The position numbers were made by a program, and so were the translations under genes. From Pirellulaceae bacterium (GTDB lineage Bacteria > Planctomycetota > Planctomycetia > Pirellulales > Pirellulaceae), in contig JAQWSU010000033.1 in assembly GCA_029243025.1 (NCBI GenBank), positions 1 through 64,000 of the forward strand: a stretch of 64,000 nucleotides of DNA, read 5' to 3'. The notes beneath the pieces are model-generated. The model ran no database searches, was not told where the DNA came from, and saw nothing but the letters and a program-made list of their open reading frames with translations. The first letter of the stretch is position 1. Each line of letters starts with the position of its first letter. Positions 1,798 to 16,500 of this stretch are shown in pieces.

Positions 1798-2348
1798 ATG
1801 GCTAGAATGGACGGACTTCAGGATTCGACTGAAGCTCACATTGATCGTGCGTTCGCCCACCAACTCAAGCAGTTCGGGCAACAGCTGAAGCCGTACGAAC
1901 TGTTCGCGAGGTGCCCCTCGATCTTTCGTGGTGTGGTTGGAATGTGGGGGGGGGGCTCGAGAGTGCTGGCTTGGTGAATCACGCACTGGTTGCGCTTGTC
2001 AATCGCCGTGTGGCCGAATTAAATGGCTGCGTCTTCTGACAGGATATCAACGCTGCCATTGGCAGTAAGCTCGGAGTCTCCGAAGCAAAGCTAATCGCCC
2101 TGTCCCAATATGAGTCGAGTGAGCTATTCCAGCAAAACGAAAAACTGGCCTTGGAATACGCCGATCGAATCACACGATCGGATCAGGATGTGAGTGATGA
2201 ATTCTATGATCGTCTTAAGCGGGTTTTCAACGATGACGAGATTGTTGAGCTGACCGCGCATATCGCTTGGGAGAATTTTTCGAGTAAATTCAACCGAGCC
2301 CTCCGTGTTGAATCACAGCAGTTTTGGGAAACAACTCAGTCGTCATAA
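1798..2348 (+). pseudogene. AhpD-like (carboxymuconolactone decarboxylase family) gene with frameshift and TGA at the CxxC motif
   Basis: Two frames together encode an AhpD-like alkylhydroperoxidase of about 183 residues. The first part (ATG 1798, AAGGAAG at 1785-1791) reads as a normal N-terminal helical region up to GVVGMWGG. At a run of ten G (1946-1955) the frame must shift by +1 or -2 to continue as LESAGLVNHALVAL. The continuation then reads RRVAELNGCVF, TGA (2037-2039), QDINAAIG: the stop sits exactly where the second cysteine of the family's C-x-x-C redox motif belongs. From 2040 to 2348 the frame is clean to a normal stop, including EIVELTAHIAWENFSSKFNRA, typical of the family C-terminus. 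It is either a recent pseudogene or an AhpD-like selenoprotein (C-x-x-Sec) with a homopolymer sequencing error. The position normally holding His in AhpD is Asn here. Confidence 0.75.
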
Positions 2349-3231: not shown

Positions 3232-3528
3232 GCTTCAATCATAGAGGCAAAACAACTGTCAGGGTAGGTCAAGCCAATACTAATCAGGTTGGTTTGAGGA
3301 TCGATGTAACGTTTGGGAGTTGTTGTTTACGGCGATGATTGGAGGGCTCAACAATCGGTTGCTTTGCTGTGCATTACGGTTTACCGCGGATGTTTTCTTC
3401 CCGCCCGATCTTGCTCTGCCCGCAAATATTGCAAAATGTAAGCGAGTTGACCGCAAAAAAAAAACCGCTCTCAACTTGGACGAACGGGGCTCATCTGTCT
3501 CAATTCGTTGACGTTAACCGAAACAAGG
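3232..3528. other. Intergenic stretch without recognisable gene
   Basis: About 300 bases separate the start of the histidinol phosphatase (minus strand) from the end of the small membrane protein (minus strand). I see no coding pattern, RNA gene or clear terminator, only a run of ten A at 3455-3464. It must contain the histidinol phosphatase promoter. Confidence 0.5.
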
Positions 3529-10068: not shown

Positions 10069-11751
10069 TTGGAATCGAAAGACCTTTTAAAGCTTGTGTT
10101 TGAACTTGTGGGTGGTCTCGGAATTTTTCTGCTCGGCATGAAATACATGTCGGAGGGCATGCAAACCGTCGCGGGAAAAAGTTTGCGGAAGTTGATCAGC
10201 GCTGTCACGACAAATCGCTTTTTCGCGACGATCGTTGGGGTGATTGTCACTTGCGTGGTTCAATCCAGTTCGATCACGACCGTCATGGTCGTAGGATTTG
10301 TGAACAGTGGCCTCATGGAATTAACCCAGGCCATTGGAGTCATTTTGGGTGCCAATATTGGCACGACGATCACGGGTTGGATCCTAGTGCTTAAGATCGG
10401 CAAATATGGACTTCCCTTGTTGGGATTTGGTGCCTTTGGCTATTTGTTCTCAAAAGGCGATCGCTATCGTTATTGGGCGATGGTTTTTATGGGCGTCGGT
10501 ATGGTCTTCTTTGGTCTTGAGCTAATGAAAGACGCCTGCGGTCTAATCAAAGACATGCCTGAATTCGAATTGTGGTTCCAACGTTTTCAAGCCAACAGTT
10601 ATTTGGGTGTACTCCAATGTGCGCTGGCAGGTTGCATCTTGACGATGATGGTGCAATCCTCTTCCGCCACATTAGGCATTACCATTTCCCTCGCGTTTCA
10701 GGGCATTATCTCCTACGAAACGGCAGCGGCCTTGGTGTTGGGTGAAAATATTGGGACGACGATCACTGCAATCCTGGCTTCTCTTGGCGCAACGACCAAT
10801 GCGCGTCGTGCGGCATATTTCCATGTAATCTTCAACATGATTGGTGTGTTATGGATCACTGCTCTCTTCCAGCCCTACATTGAATTAGTGCAATGGATTG
10901 TTGGTGAGGATGTCAGCAAAGCAGTCATGGTGAATGGTCAAGAGACATTCCCGAATACAACGATGGCGATTGCGGCAACGCACACAATCTTTAATGTTTC
11001 AAACACGTTTTTGTTTTTACCTTTCGTCCCCTTCTTCACTCGTTTGCTGACTCGATTGGTGCCGTCGAAGGAATTCAAGGAGCAACCCCATCTCACGGAT
11101 CTCGATGTACGCATCCTAGAAACACCACCGTTGGCGATCGAACAATCCAGGCGAGAAATAGAAAAAATGGGGGCAAGCTGCGCGGAGATGTTAGATTGGC
11201 TGGCTCAGTTACTGCGAGATGACGATCCTGACCGATCCATGGGAGATCGATTGCAGCAGCGCGAAGACGAATTGGACACAGTGCATGACGAAATTGCCGC
11301 CTTTGTCACCAATCTGCTCTCAGCGAATGTGCCTCATTCGATCGCGGACGAAGGCCGACGACAATTACGCATGGCGGACGAGTATGAATCCGTAAGTGAT
11401 TACGTTGCGAATCTCGACACGTTCGATCGGAAGCTTCGACGTGACGGACATCGCTTTACAGGCGAGCAGCGTGAAGGCCTGATCGCGATAAATGAACAGT
11501 TGATGGAATATCAGGCCAAAATCAACTCAGCACTGACCCAGGATAATCGCAACGTCGTTACGGAGACGGAGTCGTTGTCCAATCGGATCAAGGAAGAAGT
11601 GAAGCAACTGAGAAGGCGACACTTGGATCAAATTTCGTCCGGAGAGATCTCTCCACAGTTGACTGTTGCTTTTCTAGCGGCCCTGAACGCGTATTCGCGA
11701 GTGCGCGACCACATCAGTAACATCGCAGAGGCTGTGTGTGGCGAAAAATAA
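10069..11751 (+). CDS. Na+/phosphate cotransporter family protein with PhoU-like C-terminal domain
   Basis: The protein (560 residues from TTG 10069) is a NptA/YjbB-type sodium-phosphate cotransporter. The two inverted halves each show the QSSS signature (VVQSSSITTVM and MVQSSSATLGI) and a matching GANIGTTIT or GENIGTTIT motif. About nine membrane segments fill the first 360 residues. The C-terminal part from about residue 385 is helical and PhoU-like (MADEYESVSDYVANL...YSRVRDHISNIAEAVCG), as in full-length bacterial members. The TTG start is supported by AGGAGA at 10055-10060; an upstream frame from 9988 would add 27 residues without a good site. A decayed phoU gene follows, so the fused domain may be the only PhoU function left here. 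Confidence 0.92.
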   Translation: MESKDLLKLVFELVGGLGIFLLGMKYMSEGMQTVAGKSLRKLISAVTTNRFFATIVGVIVTCVVQSSSITTVMVVGFVNSGLMELTQAIGVILGANIGTTITGWILVLKIGKYGLPLLGFGAFGYLFSKGDRYRYWAMVFMGVGMVFFGLELMKDACGLIKDMPEFELWFQRFQANSYLGVLQCALAGCILTMMVQSSSATLGITISLAFQGIISYETAAALVLGENIGTTITAILASLGATTNARRAAYFHVIFNMIGVLWITALFQPYIELVQWIVGEDVSKAVMVNGQETFPNTTMAIAATHTIFNVSNTFLFLPFVPFFTRLLTRLVPSKEFKEQPHLTDLDVRILETPPLAIEQSRREIEKMGASCAEMLDWLAQLLRDDDPDRSMGDRLQQREDELDTVHDEIAAFVTNLLSANVPHSIADEGRRQLRMADEYESVSDYVANLDTFDRKLRRDGHRFTGEQREGLIAINEQLMEYQAKINSALTQDNRNVVTETESLSNRIKEEVKQLRRRHLDQISSGEISPQLTVAFLAALNAYSRVRDHISNIAEAVCGEK

Positions 11752-11833
11752 GTACTGCGTCTGGTGAGATCTTTGCCCGACGCAACTCGGCGTGGCTGCT
11801 TGACGCACCTTGTATCGTATTAGGTGGCGCCAC

Positions 11834-12512
11834 GTGAGTACGATCTCGAAGGAAGTTGCGAATCTTCGGTTTTTGATTCTGTCGATTGGCAAATTGGCCG
11901 TCGAAATGGTCGATAAGGCTGTTGAAGCGTGTGATTCGAATCATCGATATGAATTAGTTCTGGAGGTTTTAAAAGCCGAATCTGCTTTAGATCGAATGCA
12001 ACTGGCAATCGATTCGTAGGCCGTTCGCACGCTTACGGTTCATCGTCCCGTGGCCTCTGATTAGCGGTTTATGATCACGGGCTCCCGAATCGTTAGTGAG
12101 CTAGAACGGATTGGCGATCAAGCCAACAATCGCTGCGAGATTCTTCAATTTGCAGCGAGCAAAAACGTATTCGACATGGATGCCTAAGTCGAGCATCGTT
12201 GCGGAAATGTTGTCGGATGCTTGAGAAGCATTTAGCAAGAGTCATGTTTCGCTGGTAAGGGCAACAATCGCCTTAGATGATCTGGTCGATGTGCTGAATG
12301 ATCCGATCACACAGGATCTTCTTAGTGATGAGCGGGTCCGCGATGCGATCGCGGGAGGAAATCGCATCGGCAGAGGGTTTATTCAGATGATTGTTGCGAG
12401 AGCCTTGGAACGAATTGCTGATCACGCAACGAATATCAGTGAAGAGGTTATCTACCTTGTCAAGGGCGAGGATATTCGTCACAACGATAGCGATGCGACA
12501 AAGCCTGATTGA
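11834..12512 (+). pseudogene. phoU: Decayed phoU (phosphate signalling protein) gene
   Basis: No intact frame exists, but conceptual translation matches both PhoU repeats. The first half starts at GTG 11834 (STISKEVANLRFLILSIGKLAVEMV), passes a TAG at 12017, reads VHRPVASD, hits a TAG at 12062 and continues RFMITGSRIVSELERIGDQ, the hallmark of repeat one. After a TAA at 12185 and a frame change, the second half reads SSIVAEMLSDA, TGA (12222), [10 protein letters not shown] and ends [19 protein letters not shown], the hallmark of repeat two. At least three nonsense codons and one frameshift rule out a sequencing slip or a single recoding event. PhoU normally tunes PhoR and Pst phosphate uptake; here it trails a phosphate cotransporter with its own PhoU-like domain. 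Confidence 0.9.
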
Positions 12513-12582
12513 GCCTTTCATGAGGCAGTTTTATCGGGTATCGCTTCGGCGTGATCTTTTTGTCAAAGCGTTACTGGCAAGA

Positions 12583-13392
12583 TCATTTGGGCGGTAGTTG
12601 TAAGTCGGCAGTTGTTAGGCTCACATTCGCACCTTGTTGAGGTACCTTCAAATGCGAGGTCCAGAGAATCGCATTTACAATCGTTTTTCGAAACGCTTCG
12701 ATCTGAAAGTTGCGATAGAAATGACCCAGAGTGGTCCCATAGGAACGACCGCCGTTGGGCCGCTGATACGCCCAACCCACAATCACATCTTCTTCTTTCG
12801 TGGTTACTTGCAGTAGCGGGGTTGCCCCGCGCATGACAGGTTTCAGATAGAACTCATCATGTAATTCATAGTCTTGCCAGCCACGACATATCGGGTGTTT
12901 TGCATCCAGTTGGTTGAGCTGGGACGATTCGGTGCTGAGGCCATAATTGGAAACCCAGAATCCACCAAGATATTCCCCCCAAGGTTTGCCGAGTCGATCG
13001 AGGTTTTTTTCATAAACGGAGGATGCCCAATGGATCGTCACCAAACCGACTCCATCTCGGAGCATCTGATGGACCTCATTCGCCCCAGGACCGTCGAGCA
13101 GGAACTCAGCTCCGGGTGATGAATAGAGCACAATTGTTTTGATGCCCTTCAATCGTTCGGGATCTTGGGGCCACCCCTGAGAAATGACGGTTTCGATTTG
13201 CCCCGTCTTTTGGAGGCATTTTGCCAGCAAGTTGGAGGTGTGCATGTACATGTGGGTGCCATGCGGGTGGTCAGGCTGCTTGCCCACCAGGAGCACTTTT
13301 GCTTTTTCGATTTCTGCCGCTGAAAGTTGATGCGAGAGGATTAGTCCCAGCATGGCTCCAAGAAGGATAAACAGAGAGTTCGAGGATTTCAT
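12583..13392 (-). CDS. ThuA-like domain protein, secreted
   Basis: The product (269 residues from ATG 13392, GGGAGA five bases upstream) has a Sec signal peptide (SLFILLGAMLGLILSHQLSAAE) and a ThuA-like, class I glutamine-amidotransferase-like fold. Visible family features are KVLLVGKQPDHPHGTHMY at the first strand, TIVLYSSPGAEFLL, GVGLVTIHWASS, and the C-terminal GGRSYGTTLGHFYRNFQ. ThuA-like proteins were named from trehalose utilisation in rhizobia, and planctomycetes carry many exported forms whose reaction is unknown. The upstream in-frame start at 13473 lacks a site and would mask the signal peptide. It is divergent from the first PSD1 gene, with 128 bases between. Confidence 0.88.
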   Translation of the reverse strand: MKSSNSLFILLGAMLGLILSHQLSAAEIEKAKVLLVGKQPDHPHGTHMYMHTSNLLAKCLQKTGQIETVISQGWPQDPERLKGIKTIVLYSSPGAEFLLDGPGANEVHQMLRDGVGLVTIHWASSVYEKNLDRLGKPWGEYLGGFWVSNYGLSTESSQLNQLDAKHPICRGWQDYELHDEFYLKPVMRGATPLLQVTTKEEDVIVGWAYQRPNGGRSYGTTLGHFYRNFQIEAFRKTIVNAILWTSHLKVPQQGANVSLTTADLQLPPK

Positions 13393-13520
13393 GAAGTCTC
13401 CCGACACGAGGCTGTGTTGACCGTGTATGCTTACGATGGATGCTGCGACAACTGTTTTGACTACAGAATACAATTCCTAATGGTCAATTTCAATTAGCGG
13501 ACGACCGCTGTTTGGTGATT

Positions 13521-16500
13521 ATGATGCCCGCATTTGATGTCGAAGTTCAAGTTAGTCGCTTTTGGTCGAAAGCGTTGCAATCCGGTCGGATGCTCCGTGC
13601 CCTGAGGGGCAGCGCGTTTGCCCTGCTGGCGATCTTTTCGGGAACGGTCGCAGTCAGAGCCGATACAAATTTCGAGTCGAAAGTTGCCCCCTTGTTGATA
13701 AAACGCTGCGTCGAATGCCATCAGGGTCGCGAGCCGGCGGGAGGGCTGTCATTGACGACTCAGGCGGGATTAAAGAACGGTGGGGATTCAGGTGCTGTTA
13801 TCGACCCCGAGAATGCAGATGAGAGTCACTTGTTACAGCGTGTTGTTGCAGGCGAGATGCCGCCCGAGCAGCAGGGCCGGGCAGAAAAATTGTCGGAGAC
13901 AGAGATACGCATTCTGCAGAATTGGTTGCGCAGCGGTGCCGTCTGGCCAGACGAGCGAGAATTGGATTTCTTCGAACGCACGAATGATCAACGTGCGGGT
14001 CGTGATTGGTGGTCCCTCCAGCCAATTATCAAGCCGCCAGTCCCACAACTGCAAAAACATCCGCAACCCGAAAACCCGATCGACGCTTTTATTTTAGCGC
14101 GGTTGGAAGCAGAAGGTTTTTCACCGGCTCCTTCCGCTGATCGACGAACATTGATTCGGCGTGTCTACTTTGATCTGATCGGATTGCCTCCCTCATTACG
14201 TGAGGTGGACGATTTTCTGGAGGACAATTCTTCGACCGCCTGGGAAAGGTTGGTGGATCGTTTGCTCGCTACGCCACAATACGGTGAGCGCTGGGGGCGG
14301 TATTGGTTAGACCTGGCCCGATATGCCGATACGAGTGGCTATGAACGAGATCAGGAAAAGCTTTTTGCATGGCGTTATCGTGACTGGGTGGTGAACGCCT
14401 TCAACTCGGATATGCCCTACCGGCAATTCATTACCGAGCAGTTGGCGGGTGACGAGATTTCAGAGCGAAATGAGCAATCGGTTATTGCAACCGGATTCTT
14501 GCGGCTTGGCGCGTGGAATGACGAGCCCAATGATCCCGCTGACTATCACTACGAGCGGTTAGAAGATCTGGTGCATACGACGTCGTCTGCGTTTCTAGCA
14601 CTCACTGTTAAATGCGCTCGTTGCCACGCCCATAAGTTCGACGCGATCAAGCAGGAAGATTATTATCGCATGGCCACCGCGTTTTGGCCCGGATTAGAGA
14701 CAGGAGGCAAACGCGAACAGCTCGGTGGGCCAACCGCGGAAATACTCGGTTTTCCCAATGTGCTTGGTTGGACTGATTTGGACGCCCGCCCTGCTCCGTT
14801 ATATCTCTTAAAAGACGGTGAGCGGTTGCAGCCCATGGAAGAAGTTATTCCTGCAACTCTTTCATCGATCCCTTCCTTGGAACGGCATTTTTTACCGCCC
14901 GAATCGACTTCCCGCACGACGGGGCGGCGTCTCCAGCTGGCTCAGTGGATTGCCGATCCGGAACACCCATTAGCGCCACGGGTATTGGTAAACCGTCTCT
15001 GGTTGCACCACTTTGGACAAGCGATTGTACGGACCCCGAATAACTTTGGATTTCTGGCTGATCCCCCCACTCACCCACGGTTGCTGGACTGGCTCGCCGC
15101 AGAATTCGTGGCAAATGGCGGGCGAATGAAGGCCATCCATCGACTTATTCTTACTTCCTCAACTTGGCAGCAATCGAGTCTGCCTCCCAACGCTCGTGAG
15201 CTAGAAAAGCGGGATCCGGCCAATCGGTGGCATGGGCGGGCCAACCGTCGAAGACACGATGCTGAAACCTTGCGAGACTCGTTGCTGGCGTCAAGCGGTG
15301 AACTCGATCTGACTCGTGGGGGGCCAGGGTTCAAACCGACGATAAGTTCGAACGCTCTGGAGGGTCTGTCTCGGAAGTCGAAGGCTTGGCAGGCTTCGGC
15401 ACCGCATGAACAAAAACGTCGCAGTCTCTATCTGTATCTGAAACGAGGACTGTTGCCGCCCATGATGACCACATTTGACCTGTGTGATCCGACTCAATCG
15501 TGCGGTAAACGGGATATCACCACTGTCCCCACTCAGGCATTGGCTTTGCTTAATAATCGTTTTGTGCACGATCGCAGTCAAAACCTGGCATCGCGAATCA
15601 CGAAACAAGCATCCGATGTTGATACCCAGATCGGTCTTGCGTGGACCCACGTCTTGTCCAGAAAACCTTCCGATCACGAATTTAAATTATCACGACGGCA
15701 CTTGTTAACGCAGCAACGGATCTATTCGGTAAGTCACGATCAACAATCAAACAACGACTTGCACTCGCAATTATTGGCGAACGATCTGGTGTTACACCTG
15801 CAGGCCAATCAAGCAAACGTATCGAAGAGTTCAAATTCGCAGGTCGCCAAATGGGAAGATCTCTCAGCAGCGGCTCACCACGCGCACCAAGCTGCTGCGA
15901 ATGCTCAGCCTGTTTTGGTGGAAAATGGATTTGGGAAATATCCGATCGTCAAATTTGACGGAACAAATGATTTCCTCCGCTTGGATGGCCAACTCCTCGA
16001 TTCGACAACCTTCACCATCATCGGTGTGGTCAACGACGAGAAAGATCGAGGGCACCGGGAGATTCTTTCGAATTGGAATGGAGCGAAGGGGAACGCCACG
16101 AGTTCGCTATTCTTGGGACTGACCGAGACAAATACCGTGCGATTCACTGATCGTTTGCCCAATTTCGGTGTAGTCACGGCTCGGCGGGAGCCATTTATTC
16201 TTTCCGCTGTAAGCAGATCGGATGAGGTCGAAATGTTTCAGAACGGCCGCTTGCTCTCCACTGGCCCTGCCTTGAGCGATCGTCGACTCGACACCGCATG
16301 GGTAATCGGACAGCAAGGTAATATTAACGGCGAATTTTGGCAGGGTGGGATCGCTGAGCTGCTTGTTTTTCGGCGAGCGCTCACCTCCTCAGAACGTCGC
16401 CAAATTGAGCGAGGCTTAGCCGAACGCTACCAGCTGCCTTTGACGAACGCCGTTCGGTTCACGGCAAGGAGTCGCGCTGTCGCATCGTTATGTCATGTTT

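Follow-up and report, generated by a model that had tools for sequence, protein, structure and literature searches.

A CxxU selenoprotein gene of the AhpD-like/CMD family, probably being lost, in a Pirellulaceae genome

Does a TGA codon at the redox site of an AhpD-like gene stand for selenocysteine, and does the gene that carries it still give a working protein? These questions are raised by positions 1798-2348 of the window, the whole 64,000-nucleotide stretch analysed here (contig C33:1-64000 of a Pirellulaceae genome of 8.35 Mb in 60 contigs), where an AhpD-like/CMD gene with an in-frame TGA is found on the plus strand. Reading the sequence places a Shine-Dalgarno-like AAGGAAG (1785-1791) 6 nt upstream of the ATG at 1798, from which 59 codons, translating as the N-terminal half of the protein (MARMDGL...GMW) and an out-of-frame continuation, extend to a TGA stop at 1975-1977. 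The frame changes at a run of 10 G (1946-1955), as seen from the frames themselves and from comparison with relatives, and the C-terminal part, assigned by translation and alignment, occupies 1956-2348. Within this second frame the codons at 2028-2051 are TGC-GTC-TTC-TGA-CAG-GAT-ATC-AAC, with 2025-2051 translating as G-C-V-F-TGA-Q-D-I-N, which puts the TGA (2037-2039) at the second position of the C-x-x-C motif; 102 open codons follow it before TAA at 2346-2348. A preliminary description, made from the sequence alone, had proposed a selenoprotein on the grounds that TGA replaces the second CxxC cysteine and is followed by a clean, conserved-looking frame of 102 codons, and both observations hold, the protein after the TGA being conserved among homologues.

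The joined protein can be aligned from residue 1 both with its same-genus homologue and with the NCBIfam model NF053654, 'YciW-related (seleno)protein', which it matches over model positions 1-178 of 179. The match is nearly full length but its score of 238 bits falls short of the curated cut-off of 310, a value that was reached nowhere among the 392, 154 and 5 genomes searched. Against PF02627 it scores 29.5 bits, above the curated cut-off of 23, and the C-terminal frame alone scores 27.9 bits; the whole-genome PF02627 scan did not list the gene, the only locus reported being a CMD gene on contig C59. CMD/AhpD-like proteins of known structure with a CxxC motif (PDB chains 2ijc, 2o4d, 7xw1 and 2gmy) are similar in sequence, with E-values from 4e-14 to 1e-13, but the window gene has TGA in place of the second cysteine codon. 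By these matches the gene is one for a CMD/AhpD-like (YciW-related) redox protein with the predicted active-site motif C-x-x-U.

CxxU proteins with a PF02627 domain are already known, having been published in 2005 and 2008 (PMC1088965, PMC2398784), and the gene described here is a further case, with a lesion. The parts of these papers available to us describe a CMD domain-containing selenoprotein from the Sargasso Sea with a CXXU motif (4 sequences; PMC1088965) and the AhpD-like 2 selenoproteins, assigned to pfam02627 and likewise CxxU (70 sequences in GOS; PMC2398784); a CMD-like CxxU entry appears again in the accessible text of PMC13188914, and planctomycete selenoproteins have, from what is available of PMC4807772, also been published. 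A literature search on YciW and selenoproteins gave a single review (PMC9312934). The AhpD-like 2 and Sargasso Sea proteins share with the window gene the PF02627 domain, the C-x-x-U motif and a downstream SECIS-like hairpin. As far as their descriptions in those parts go, the window gene is set apart from them in being planctomycete-like, in having its frame broken upstream and in lacking the guanine of the hairpin loop.

For TGA to be read as selenocysteine the genome needs the corresponding machinery, and selA, selB, selC and selD, for which the preliminary description had advised a search, are all present. The selA gene (570 bits) adjoins selB (365 bits against a cut-off of 242), and the tRNA-Sec scores 64.7 bits against a gathering score of 47, with ARAGORN giving the anticodon as TCA (tRNA-Sec(UCA)). 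Two of the genes found have a single in-frame TGA of their own, namely selD (352 bits), where it lies in a CAGU motif, and a SelW-like Rdx gene (65.4 bits). On the contig carrying selA and selB (10120-11562 and 11618-13549 of locus L043, G000:C2:228000-247000, minus strand), selC is found about 29 kb away at G000:C2:270140-270235 and the SelW-like gene lies between them at C2:258050-258256; selD is on contig C60. Neither the window nor the selAB region has an Rfam match at gathering scores, and ARAGORN found no tRNA within the latter. Among 24 genomes with the TGA form, this one included, 20 have selA above cut-off, the other four (G067, G045, G517 and G669) being 76-87% complete. A selA above cut-off is also present in 10 of 20 genomes whose matches were all of the cysteine form, G029 and G030 passing only just, so having selA is not by itself a predictor of the TGA form.

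The preliminary description had also called for an alignment of homologues, and this reveals the exchange expected of a selenocysteine site. In the tblastn alignment 37 of 114 homologous loci have TGA at the site and the remaining 77 have TGC or TGT; no other codon occurs, and neither TAA nor TAG is found in any of the 114. A further locus had been entered, L082, which has no alignment over the site, though its translation reads CDYU. Six of the 114 are copies fetched twice, which leaves 108 distinct rows (33 TGA and 75 Cys), and the addition of four TGA rows (L205-L208) gives 37 TGA of 112 rows; the hairpin count and covariation test below took in the 33. Further TGA matches without a locus of their own are second copies in G243, G427, G517 and G471, and in the region from which L061 derives (G243:C13:12495-13675) two TGA copies of the family lie side by side, one of which is the row counted for L061. 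The named TGA loci are recorded under Planctomycetes groups, Chloroflexi, Bryobacterales, Deltaproteobacteria, Alphaproteobacteria, Bacillota and one unplaced bacterium, all of them metagenome bins whose phylum labels may therefore be wrong.

A quick tree of the 37 TGA and 75 Cys rows with the site masked, made with no bootstrap and carrying a long-branch warning, needs 5 state changes against a mean of 31.2 when the states are shuffled, and it pairs the window gene with L014 (SH-aLRT 93) inside a cluster of 14 TGA rows that has a support of 88. Near the site, Asp is found at +2 in 36 of the 37 TGA forms, and at +4 there is Asn in the window gene and in 21 of the 37, compared with His in 39 of the 75 Cys forms. 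A survey of 241 genomes of the same family gave a match in 101, the closest being L014 (62% identical), L015 of the same genus (54%) and L016 (34%), each of which has TGA at the site; taken over the joined protein, identity to L014 is about 60%. The records of the nearest homologues are named Planctomycetales and Planctomycetaceae bacterium, and the sequence of one, L087 (SP176, Planctomycetaceae bacterium), is that of L015. In the same-genus genome the locus is orthologous, with genes for a Gfo/Idh/MocA oxidoreductase (79%), a small hydrophobic protein (58%), the AhpD-like protein and a PHP-domain protein (74%), and there the AhpD-like gene is unbroken and has the TGA.

Twelve nucleotides past the TGA is a hairpin, GCTGCC-ATT-GGCAGT (2052-2066), which the preliminary description had noted as lying at a distance compatible with a bacterial SECIS while lacking the expected loop G. 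Its stem is of 6 bp, its loop of 3 nt (AUU, 2058-2060), its spacing 18 nt and its energy -7.5 kcal/mol for the hairpin alone. All four values are within the limits of the bacterial SECIS model as set out in the available text of PMC13188914 (apical loop 3-9 nt, stem 4-16 bp, spacing 16-37 nt, energy at most -7.5), so the distance is indeed compatible. The model also asks for a G at one of the two positions that open the loop, though according to the same text a subset of elements breaks it, and here the hairpin fails, whether the loop is taken as AUU or, with the last pair opened, as CAUUG.

When the rows are put in register on the TGA, this hairpin retains 5 or more of its 6 pairs in 26 of the 33 TGA rows and in 1 of the 75 Cys rows, and when the helix is slid by -9 to +24 at most 5 of the 33 TGA rows keep it; seven of the 33 do not keep the hairpin in this position. 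The covariation score over the alignment of the 33 rows is 0.305 compared with 0.125 in shuffled alignments, and 19 cells are changed on both sides of a pair compared with 7.1, neither value being equalled in any of 500 shuffles. The columns that covary are 18-28 (U-A, G-C and C-G) and 16-30 (G-C, G-U, U-A and A-U). Two other measures gave no clear excess: 3 pairs were changed on both sides against 2.6 in shuffles, and the number of pair types was equally high in 59 of the 500. Judged by pairing conservation, covariation and folding energy, the hairpin at 2052-2066 is the predicted SECIS of the CxxU family.

The presence of the machinery, the exchange of Cys and TGA codons at the site and the covarying hairpin together make it almost certain that the TGA at 2037-2039 is a selenocysteine codon by descent. 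The preliminary description had left room for a chance nonsense mutation of the Cys codon in a decaying AhpD-like gene, with no selenocysteine involved. The gene does carry a frameshift, as such decay would suggest, but 36 other distinct homologues, from several phyla by their records, have TGA at the very same codon, stop codons of the other two kinds are absent from the site, the hairpin covaries and the Sec machinery is complete; it is contradicted directly by the same-genus orthologue, which occupies the corresponding locus and has the TGA. We therefore reject chance nonsense, which is now the least likely of the explanations considered here, on the exclusivity of TGA and Cys at the site and the conservation and covariation of the hairpin.

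In AhpD the redox cysteine attacks and is resolved by the first cysteine, and the protein has a proton relay. In working relatives of the window gene SelB with Sec-tRNA would presumably read the UGA through by using the downstream hairpin as SECIS, placing selenocysteine at the second position of C-x-x-C, so that a selenol would stand in for the second cysteine of AhpD relatives. To judge from its family the product is probably a thiol/selenol peroxidase or reductase. By analogy with AhpD the selenocysteine would attack a peroxide or disulfide and the first cysteine would resolve, and the proton relay may differ in the TGA forms given their residues at +2 and +4.

Whether the gene at this locus still makes such a protein is more doubtful. 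The half beginning at ATG 1798 does not share the frame of the CxxU half, so there is no single frame interrupted by the TGA alone and, because of the frameshift, the gene as assembled cannot yield the full protein. The preliminary description did not mention this break. The corresponding codons are TGG-GAT-GGA-CTT in L014 and TGG-GTC-GGT-CTC in L015, with no G run in either. The preliminary description had counted close relatives with an intact Cys codon, and further decay confined to this strain, as evidence against selenocysteine; the close relatives in fact carry TGA, but the further decay, the frame break, is indeed confined to this genome. A selenoprotein gene it thus is in all likelihood, as proposed, and it is the working product in this strain that is in doubt, with both the frame broken and the loop G gone. 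The frame beyond the TGA is not only open: over 95 codons compared with L014, L015, L056 and L205, pN is 0.18-0.29 and pS 0.69-0.85. Since these codons have stayed open and conserved in protein, any loss must be recent.

In lacking the loop G the window hairpin genuinely departs from its family. Of the 26 TGA rows that keep the hairpin, 24 have G as the first of three loop bases, the exceptions being the window (ATT) and L057 (ATC), and in this genome selD and the SelW-like gene have hairpins with the loops GGT and GTC. When any hairpin was allowed that had a stem of at least 5 bp, spacing of 16-37 nt, a G within the first two bases of the loop and an energy of at most -5 kcal/mol (a threshold of our own), 36 of the 37 TGA rows and 15 of the 75 Cys rows had one, the window being the sole TGA row to fail; requiring a stem of at least 6 bp gave 31 of 37 and 8 of 75. 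A second hairpin, TCGGA-GTC-TCCGA (2071-2083), does satisfy the loop-G rule, with a loop GUC at a spacing of 36, but it is weak: its energy is -4.1 kcal/mol, and hairpins as good arose in 183 of 2000 codon shuffles. Neither L014 nor L015 has a counterpart of it among its best hairpins.

The frame break and the lost loop guanine lead us to think that the selenoprotein gene has probably been inactivated recently, or come under relaxed selection, in this genome; granted that the codon is selenocysteine by descent, the gene is quite likely inactive in this strain. The main rival to recent loss is an assembly error at the G run. The same gene would then be intact and functional, the run length being an assembly or sequencing error and SelB either tolerating the A-U-U loop or using the second hairpin. 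A homopolymer such as the 10 G of this assembly is a classic site of consensus error, and the frame is open and conserved on either side of it. The A-first loop of L057, which stands in an open frame with TGA, suggests that A may be tolerated there, and the conserved hairpin of the window is as stable as the rule asks. This explanation is nevertheless the less likely one, since the missing guanine is an independent sign of relaxation and the assembly does not as a rule interrupt genes at G runs. Seven window genes with a same-genus homologue 65-89% identical, in a comparison covering a portion of a single contig from the only genome of that genus, each form one unbroken frame, one of them running into the window end, and the earlier view that other genes here are plainly decayed finds no support in these seven. 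Of 55 other runs of 9-13 G or C in the genome, judged by an ORF heuristic, 26 lie within ORFs of at least 200 aa, including seven runs of 10 or 11, and on this ground we reject homopolymer error as a genome-wide habit. The remaining 29 do not, and seven odd-looking runs of the 55, read by eye, include no clear broken gene. At L148, L156 and L177 a gene ends just beyond the run, and at L161, L198 and L202 one begins near it. The 26 runs and the seven unbroken genes make a general assembly fault unlikely, though this one run may be in error, and the frame break at the G run is presumably real. The window has just one further homopolymer of this length, a run of 10 A at 3455-3464.

A real break might instead be a switch, in which the frames are joined in some molecules or cells because the ribosome or polymerase slips by -1 or because the tract length is phase-variable. 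The tract is just where the frame breaks, and shifting by -1 there leads into the CxxU frame, but the tract is absent from the two nearest homologues, and compared with them such a shift would add one glycine, so we consider this very improbable. An on/off switched selenoenzyme of this kind would have to be recoded twice, at points about 80 nt from each other, by slippage or phase variation at G10 and by UGA readthrough with an A-first-loop SECIS, and its prospects are slimmer still. No literature on phase variation of selenoprotein genes was found by title or abstract start.

Under the favoured explanation, recent loss or relaxation, SECIS and gene would seem to be going together while the genome retains its Sec machinery, and at least two other TGA selenoprotein genes, selD and the SelW-like gene, persist. 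Annotation pipelines can truncate selenoprotein genes at TGA; here a correct selenocysteine call was made from raw sequence. The set of 37 TGA and 75 Cys homologues, in which the hairpin is nearly confined to the TGA genes, would be suited to benchmarking bacterial SECIS predictors and to the naming of such genes. Within this set L057 (G588; 1738-1782) passes the loop-G rule only through an overlapping hairpin with a loop G, and may be a natural test of SECIS loop tolerance. In six other TGA homologues, L069, L072, L074 and L077 (from one family of the phylum), L065 and L093, the best hairpin is displaced by as much as 9 nt, yet the loops CGTGA, CGGGA, GGT and CGTG retain G at their start; the SECIS has apparently migrated within the coding sequence.
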